The notes below the pieces were generated by a model that was given only the letters and a program-made list of their open reading frames with translations, was not told the origin of the DNA and ran no database searches. Positions 17,926-19,880 of a DNA stretch of 64,000 bases are shown in pieces (position 1 is the first letter of the stretch; each line of letters begins with the position of its first letter). The stretch is from an uncultured Cytophagales bacterium. Its GTDB lineage: Bacteria > Bacteroidota > Bacteroidia > Cytophagales > Thermonemataceae. The stretch spans positions 1 to 64,000 of the forward strand of contig CALLAC010000004.1 in assembly GCA_938002655.1 (NCBI GenBank), written 5' to 3'. The position numbers and the translations under genes were made by a program.

Positions 17926-19188
17926 ATGAAGCCCAACTATAAAACTAAAGATTTTTTCTTTCCTATTTTCAGCATTCTGAAAGAAGCAAACAAGCCTCTC
18001 AAACCTTCTGAGGTAGCCCAAAAAATCATTCAAAATTTGCCTTTGGATAGAAAATCGGAATTTTGGGCGATAGTAAGGCTCAAACTCAAAAATCGCATAC
18101 GCAGTGCGGCAAACCATCTGGCAGAAGCAGGCATCATCTATACTACCAAAAAAAATCCTTATCAGAAAAAAGGCTGGTTCTTGACTGAATATGGCAAACA
18201 ATTGCAAGTAGACGAACCTGAGCTTATTCGCGAAGCCAAACGAAATATTCGTAGAAAAAGCATCCAAAACCTTGAAACAAACACCAAACTCTTTCTACCC
18301 AAAGTAGTTTCTCGCAAAAAACGAGAGCAAACTATCAGCTTTAGCAAAAATACCATTCTCTACGGACCACCCGCTACGGGCAAAACCTCCAAAGCCATTG
18401 AAATGGCTATCGGTATTTTAGGTTTGGATAAACTTAAAAGCCATGATGCCAAAAAAGCCTTACGAGATTTGCAGGGAAGTCAGTTTGAAATGATTTCTCT
18501 ACATCCCAACTATCGCTACGAGCATTTTCTGGAAGATATTGATTCCCTAGGAAAAATTAAAGATGGTATTTTGAAAAAAATTGCTATCAGGGCACGCAGA
18601 GAATACGAAAGAAATCCTGAAAATCCGTCTAACTTTGTGCTTATCATTGATGAAATGCATCGTAGCGAACCTGCTGAAATTTTCGGCGAAGCTATCAGTT
18701 TACTCGGAGCAGATAAAAGGCTTGGGCAAGAGAATGAAATTCAGGTAGCACTTGCCTATTCAGGAGAAACTTTTACCCTTACACCTAATCTCTATCTCAT
18801 TGGCACTATCAATATTGCCGAAATTGACTACCAAACCGATAGCAGTTTCTTACAGCATTTTGAAATGATACCCGTGTATCCTCGCTACGACCACATCAAT
18901 TTAGCTTATGCCGATTTTCTCAAAGAACTAAACCGCAAGATTTCCTATTACAAAGGCAGCGATTTTATGTTCGGACACGGCTATTTTATGCAAAACGCTG
19001 AAAGTTTAGATTTCTTACGTATTCTCAATCATCAGGTTATTCCTACGTTACGTTTTTATTTTGAACCCAAAGAATTAGTGCAAGAAATTTTACAAACAGC
19101 CCTCGAAGAAGCCGAAAGCACCAGAGGCAAATTTGAAGTACTTGAAAATGAACGCTTGCACCTAGAAGTTATTCGGGTGAGTTGGTAA
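17926..19188 (+). CDS. McrB-like AAA+ ATPase/GTPase with N-terminal Mrr_N-like winged helix; orphan (no McrC)
   Basis: N-terminal ILKEANKPLKPSEVAQKI...AGIIYTT...GWFLTEYGKQL; ILYGPPATGKT; LIIDEMHRSEPAEIFGE; LIGTINIAEID; TDSSFLQHF in place of LDxALRRRF. Confidence 0.78.
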   Translation: MKPNYKTKDFFFPIFSILKEANKPLKPSEVAQKIIQNLPLDRKSEFWAIVRLKLKNRIRSAANHLAEAGIIYTTKKNPYQKKGWFLTEYGKQLQVDEPELIREAKRNIRRKSIQNLETNTKLFLPKVVSRKKREQTISFSKNTILYGPPATGKTSKAIEMAIGILGLDKLKSHDAKKALRDLQGSQFEMISLHPNYRYEHFLEDIDSLGKIKDGILKKIAIRARREYERNPENPSNFVLIIDEMHRSEPAEIFGEAISLLGADKRLGQENEIQVALAYSGETFTLTPNLYLIGTINIAEIDYQTDSSFLQHFEMIPVYPRYDHINLAYADFLKELNRKISYYKGSDFMFGHGYFMQNAESLDFLRILNHQVIPTLRFYFEPKELVQEILQTALEEAESTRGKFEVLENERLHLEVIRVSW

Positions 19189-19317: not shown

Positions 19318-19880
19318 ATGCAAACAATTAAATGCAAACAATCTCTGCTGAACCCAAATCTTTCGCCCGAAGAGTATTTAGCTCAAGAGCGTCTTGCCCT
19401 TTTACGAAAGCGAATAATCAAGGGAAAATTTTTGCTACGGCAGAGACAAATTTTAAGCATAATGAAATTACTCATTTAAAAGTAAGCTAACAGGTGGAAA
19501 TTGTCGTCCTTACCCTAGCCATTTGCGAGTGTATATTCCTGAAAAAACATTTTACACCTATCCCGACATAAGCCTAATTTGTGGAGAACCTGAATTTACT
19601 GATAATAAATTTGATAGCATTACCAACCCTACGCTCATAGTAGTAGAAGTGCTTTCGCCGAGCACTGCCGATTATGATAGAGGGGCAAAATTCCGATTTT
19701 ATTAGCAAATCCCAACACTCTACTTCTTGTTAGCTTTTGGGCATGTAATGTAGAGGTTTTATCTGAAAAAAACGATAGTCTTTGGGAACTGCAAATCTAT
19801 CAAGATATAAACCCAAATTGCTACATTTCCCATTGGCATATACATTTCCTATGCAAGAAATTTACGAAAATATCAAGTGA
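19318..19880 (+). pseudogene. Uma2-family (PD-(D/E)XK-type) endonuclease remnant
   Basis: Fragments in different frames: SPEEYLAQERLA; FATAETNFKHNEITH; RVYIPEKTFYTYPDISLICGEPEFTDNKFDSITNPTLIVVEVLSPSTADYDRGAKFRFY*; then, shifted, VEVLSEKNDSLWELQIYQDINPNCYIS; MQEIYENIK*. Confidence 0.78.

Follow-up and report, generated by a model that had tools for sequence, protein, structure and literature searches.

An orphan McrB-type AAA+ protein of the Thermonemataceae with degenerate catalytic residues, conserved under purifying selection

The locus and the architecture of the protein

The stretch of DNA analysed here, referred to as the window, comprises the first 64,000 nucleotides of contig CALLAC010000004.1 from an uncultured Cytophagales bacterium of the family Thermonemataceae. 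An uninterrupted open reading frame (ORF) with an ATG start encodes in it a 420-residue protein related to McrB (Table 1). McrB is known as a ring that drives a nuclease. The protein of the window is an orphan, encoded apart from any gene for the nuclease McrC; by alignment it has lost the residues through which McrB subunits reach in trans to a neighbour's nucleotide, and it is kept under strong selection throughout its family, a small group of warm-water bacteria.

The assignment to McrB is consistent across methods. The window protein matches McrB of Thermococcus gammatolerans (E=7e-28) and Escherichia coli (2e-14), the closest solved structures, in phmmer searches, a profile built from the eight orthologues described below matches McrB at E=4e-46, and the top 20 Foldseek matches of an AlphaFold2 (AF2) model, built from an alignment of six sequences (predicted local distance difference test score (pLDDT) 74, predicted template modelling score (pTM) 0.49), are TgMcrB and EcMcrB. 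The corresponding model of the Thermonema protein (pLDDT 64) was not used. At the N-terminus, the match of the window protein on its own to Mrr_N (Pfam PF14338) is weak (E=0.046, below the gathering score), but all eight orthologues match this family at E up to 0.1, the best at 5.3e-6. The model places helices at residues 7-21, 27-36 and 47-67 and a strand at 84-86 in this region, with mostly high pLDDT; the winged-helix profile by itself matched nothing in the PDB. In the window protein a winged helix of the Mrr_N type and an AAA+ domain of the McrB type are joined in one chain, as an earlier sequence-only reading of the stretch had proposed. The motifs listed in that reading, a GPPATGKT Walker A, a McrB-type Walker B (LIIDEMHR), a GTIN segment and TDSSFLQHF at the arginine-finger position, are all present as read, and the Uma2 relic that it named as the next locus is borne out by a Pfam match to an adjoining broken gene.

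Table 1. Features of the orphan gene and its surroundings in the window (aa, amino acids of the window protein; Ec, E. coli; Tg, T. gammatolerans; dN/dS, ratio of nonsynonymous to synonymous substitution rates)
Feature	Position	Strand	Evidence
Orphan McrB-type AAA+ protein, 420 aa, single gene	17926..19188	+	ORF; McrB by phmmer, profile, Foldseek; an orthologue in each of the 8 genomes of the family
N-terminal Mrr_N-like winged helix, aa 1-110; R51, K55, N56 invariant in family	17926..18255	+	Pfam Mrr_N, residue conservation, AF2
Variable linker, aa 111-138, probably disordered	18256..18339	+	pLDDT <50 at 115-136; dN/dS 0.18-0.42, the protein's maximum
Walker A GPPATGKT, aa 147-154, intact; K153, T154 invariant in 8/8 orthologues	18364..18387	+	Alignment
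Walker B LIIDEMHR; D242, E243 kept; Ec N282 = H245	18640..18663	+	Alignment
GADKR; Ec E298 (sensor-2 Arg partner) = G261; K264 (Tg K378), R265 kept	18706..18720	+	Alignment; roles from PMC6624300, PMC7680126
Sensor-1 and arginine-finger segment GTINIAEIDYQTDSSFLQHF; N296 kept; NxxD to NxxE; R347-R348-R349 to L309-Q310-H311	18802..18861	+	Alignment; dN/dS 0.013-0.017
C-terminal region including lid helices, aa 321-420; strong constraint	18886..19185	+	dN/dS 0.01-0.03, AF2
Broken Uma2-type gene, frames interrupted (flanks ~19330-19730)	19523..19705	+	Pfam 1.2e-10, profile 60-118 of 172

Distribution, catalytic residues and selection

A protein search of eight genomes of the family, drafts among them, recovered an orthologue in every one, each time as a single intact copy free of stops. 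Raineya and Thermonema are the named members of the family, and the sample includes R. orbicola SPSPC-11, Raineya sp. SKYG86, T. rossianum DSM 10300 and two metagenome-assembled genomes (MAGs). Identity to the window protein is 88, 87 and 69% in the three other genomes of the genus Raineya, 35% in the second genus (T. rossianum and genome G006), 35% in MAG G005 and 41-46% over two segments in MAG G004. In searches of 391 genomes from the order and 395 from the class, the orthologues score 551-729 bits and the next best proteins at most 258 bits; neither these samples nor two peptide patterns over 84,980 species yielded a close relative outside the family. Within the genus, the identity of the orthologue parallels that of the adjacent SurA-like protein (87/87% in genome G003, 69/66% in G002), which is the pattern that vertical descent would give.

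The surroundings of the gene vary by genus and include a surA-like and a C25 peptidase gene, recJ, tilS, lepB and an IS-like (insertion sequence-like) gene. Across the eight loci no operon partner or other neighbour is conserved, and the conserved nuclease that the sequence-only reading had proposed to look for among them did not turn up. Phage and plasmid records contain only distant McrB matches, none of which spans 80% of the window protein, and a mobile gene carried by such elements was rejected on this basis. The same evidence bears on the idea that the protein is an anti-phage factor of another kind, one that senses and then, as a complex with bound nucleotide, signals by way of an unlinked effector. 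Its McrB ancestry and weak PADLOC matches to the AAA+ parts of the defence proteins IetA and REase_II would fit such a role, but a family-wide, apparently vertically inherited single gene among core genes is unlike mobile, patchy defence genes; with the phage and plasmid result also against it, we consider this explanation quite unlikely.

To place the sequence changes we refer to the residues of E. coli McrB, in which R349 is the arginine finger and R348 a trans-acting sensor 2 that E298 orients; D279/E280 form the Walker B pair and N333 is sensor 1, while in the T. gammatolerans protein K378, the lysine of the DKR motif, touches the alpha-phosphate of the neighbour in trans (PMC6624300; PMC7680126). 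Bona fide McrB mutated at R348, R349 or E298 is impaired, more or less severely, in hydrolysis and assembly (PMC6624300; PMC7680126). In the window protein these positions are H311 (R349), Q310 (R348), G261 (E298), D242/E243 and N296, with F312 as the next phenylalanine. In place of the tandem trans arginines stands L309-Q310-H311, and of the McrB signature MNxxDR the asparagine is kept, the aspartate is replaced by glutamate and the arginine by isoleucine. TDSSFLQHF is identical in the four Raineya genomes and RRRF occupies the finger column in all 30 McrB outgroups aligned from the order, which also keep E298 and every other catalytic residue; misalignment of an LRRRF motif was ruled out by these two observations. 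The three arginines that had been read as lost did not reappear after better alignment.

All four Raineya proteins agree in replacing R348, R349 and E298 and in keeping Walker A, Walker B and the sensor asparagine, so that, judged by alignment to the E. coli protein, the residues predicted to act in trans are gone and those acting in cis remain. Thermonema and G005 have in addition lost the Walker B glutamate (E280) and the sensor asparagine (N333), and their proteins are likely pseudo-NTPases (nucleoside triphosphatases). At the other extreme, the G004 orthologue (locus L045) has 571 residues with every catalytic motif intact, and it keeps an internal McrB insertion of ~130 residues that is wholly or mostly gone from the other orthologues. 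K153 and T154 of Walker A and K264 and R265 of the DKR motif are invariant throughout. Taken together, the predicted states form a graded decay series from the intact G004 protein, which approximates the ancestral state, through Raineya without the trans arginines to Thermonema and G005, where the catalytic loss is almost complete.

A tree of the AAA+ domain unites the eight orthologues in one clade against all other McrB proteins (ultrafast bootstrap 99) with G004 as the first branch (99), and the species tree from RecA, RpoB and SecA reads (Thermonema,(G004,(G005,Raineya))). The AAA+ data with outgroups reject the species topology (approximately unbiased test, p=0.006), the full-length protein without outgroups does not reject the species quartet (p=0.30), and long branches permit either placement of G004. 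Two histories are possible: catalysis decayed once after the G004 split, with gene-tree discordance or misplacement, or at least two times in parallel.

Selection was estimated as pairwise dN/dS by the method of Nei and Gojobori (NG86); dS lies near or above 1, so that the absolute values are rough while the comparison with neighbouring genes holds. Among three Raineya genomes the orthologue gives 0.050-0.077 and six neighbouring genes give 0.044-0.086, and for the Thermonema pair the value is 0.027 versus 0.055 for RecJ. Within the protein the lowest values fall in the C-terminal region and in the degenerate sensor and finger segment, the highest in the linker. The orthologue is under strong purifying selection and is not a decaying remnant. 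Decay of a former McrBC defence system would account for the lost catalytic motifs, the missing insertion in most members and the broken Uma2 gene next door; against it stand the constraint, very strong even in the degenerate segment itself, and the intact genes in all eight genomes, which make it highly improbable and led us to reject it. The sequence-only reading had offered a repurposed DNA-sensing NTPase or a decaying remnant: repurposing is favoured by the low dN/dS, the presence in every genome and the failure of LRRRF to return on realignment, the remnant fails together with the objection of relaxed selection, and the word NTPase is probably too strong, given residue losses that point to impaired hydrolysis and the further loss of the Walker B glutamate and sensor asparagine in relatives.

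The missing partner and a candidate role

No McrC gene adjoins the orphan at any of the eight loci, and none was found in the window genome (97.5% complete) with PF10117 or PF09823, in line with the initial observation that no McrC follows. Routine pairing of homologues with McrC, which the sequence-only reading had named as an objection, thus holds for none of the eight orthologues. Six of the eight family genomes are without a match to either profile; PF10117 is matched only in G002 and G004, away from the orphan, and PF09823 only in G002. The Raineya genome G002 carries a second, ordinary McrB (L058, G002:C1 ~577300-579900) with McrC directly downstream, ~28 kb from its orphan copy. In G004 a McrC-like PF10117 gene (L091 9251-12377, G004:C69) lies on another contig than the orphan and is preceded on the same strand by genes for 276 and 337 residues, the latter beginning like a MoxR ATPase; no McrB was detected there, and the locus is possibly a MoxR-McrC type operon.

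More distant McrB relatives in Cytophagales are of two sorts, those paired with McrC, as is often the case, and solo proteins with intact motifs (L046-L048 and L165-L169 of family f5; L050 and L054 of f15; L049, L052, L053 and L170 of f11). The neighbours of the solo genes include core genes, ruvB, meaB and secA among them, and histidine kinases, and L052 is followed by a CoxE-type VWA (von Willebrand factor A) gene, reminiscent of MoxR-VWA pairs. Because the order has other solo lineages whose motifs are intact, lacking McrC is in itself nothing special; on the evidence of these loci the solo state recurs in Cytophagales, and the selected loss of predicted catalytic residues is what distinguishes the family studied here.

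An experimentally tested precedent for an McrB protein put to another use is PcdA of Staphylococcus aureus, a member of the McrB family coopted to cell division whose weak hydrolysis of ATP and GTP was judged necessary for function (PMC10602043). With moderate confidence we favour a parallel case, in which a vertically inherited McrB was domesticated into a nucleotide-binding, poorly or non-hydrolysing and probably DNA-bound factor. The McrC nuclease would have been lost before or at the base of the family, and McrB then kept as a chromosomal single-gene factor. The residues lost, the arginine finger R349, the sensor-2 arginine R348 and its positioner E298, are those expected to act in trans on the nucleotide of the neighbour; the protein would still bind NTP through Walker A, with slow or no hydrolysis, and the bound nucleotide may serve as a structural or switch element for shape or assembly instead of as fuel for translocation. 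The Mrr_N winged helix with its conserved R51, K55 and N56 could tether the protein to DNA or to a partner, and the overall role would be that of a nucleotide-loaded scaffold or regulator, not of a restriction motor. A nucleotide-binding, non-fuelled factor is the simplest reading because the trans residues are gone, the P-loop is kept and constraint is strong.

Several points weigh against this interpretation. The orthologue is not syntenic between the genera, nor across all Raineya. Walker A, Walker B and the sensor asparagine are all present in the Raineya proteins, which speaks against the non-hydrolysing part, and Thermonema retains an arginine at the R348 column. Weak hydrolysis of ATP and GTP persists in PcdA although its Walker A is worse, so that by analogy "non-hydrolysing" may be too strong for Raineya; since the authors of the PcdA work hold that weak activity to be necessary, we do not claim zero hydrolysis there. 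DNA sensing or binding by the winged helix is a prediction from the domain, and the protein may instead serve a conserved role in defence that does without McrC, for example through an unlinked effector.

The activity of PcdA also speaks for a still active McrB-type motor, in which another residue (for example the conserved basic R320) or a partner supplies the finger and the protein works in defence or DNA processing with an unlinked effector; rescue of a finger by a partner is known from LAP1 and Torsin (quoted in PMC6624300). Such a motor would have to do without R348, R349 and E298, all replaced, and without a conserved neighbour, and as Thermonema and G005 also lack the Walker B glutamate and sensor asparagine, a family-wide function cannot need fast hydrolysis. 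We regard it as unlikely.

More tentatively, the domesticated factor may exemplify how a restriction motor becomes a housekeeping scaffold, clamped by nucleotide and bound to DNA, through stepwise loss of catalysis with binding kept, possibly more than once. McrB would then have been domesticated a second time, independently of PcdA and in a mechanistically different way. If so, the capture of McrB rings for core functions can happen repeatedly, and G004, Raineya and Thermonema/G005 offer natural steps for studying the path from motor to non-hydrolysing scaffold. Cultures exist of R. orbicola and of Thermonema species, and the protein is thus obtainable. R. orbicola forms long filaments and rods, with septa that were rarely seen to divide (PMC5982127); this growth form is no evidence for a role in division but makes one worth testing.

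Comparison with known systems

Among solved structures, the nearest in sequence and fold are the E. coli and T. gammatolerans McrB proteins of McrBC type IV restriction, with which the window protein shares the AAA+ domain with its McrB-type Walker B and the sensor asparagine of NxxD; unlike them it lacks McrC, R347-R348-R349 and E298, reads NxxE for NxxD and bears an Mrr_N winged helix as N-terminal domain. Solo Cytophagales McrB proteins (e.g. L046-L050, L053) resemble it in their AAA+ domain, in the absence of an adjoining McrC and in lying beside core genes, but in them RRRF, E298, Walker B and the sensor asparagine are intact. The G004 orthologue belongs to the same clade and is likewise an orphan with the same winged helix; its length, its internal insertion and its intact motifs set it apart.

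PcdA has features of its own, namely two EVE domains, a degraded Walker A with the Walker B aspartate kept, and loss of the C-terminal helical bundle, whereas the window protein has an intact Walker A, the Mrr_N winged helix and its C-terminal region, and has lost the arginine pair. The two belong to different phyla, and there is no evidence of a common function. What they have in common is that each is a McrC-less, lineage-restricted and degenerate McrB, PcdA with its function retained (PMC10602043) and the window family under purifying selection.
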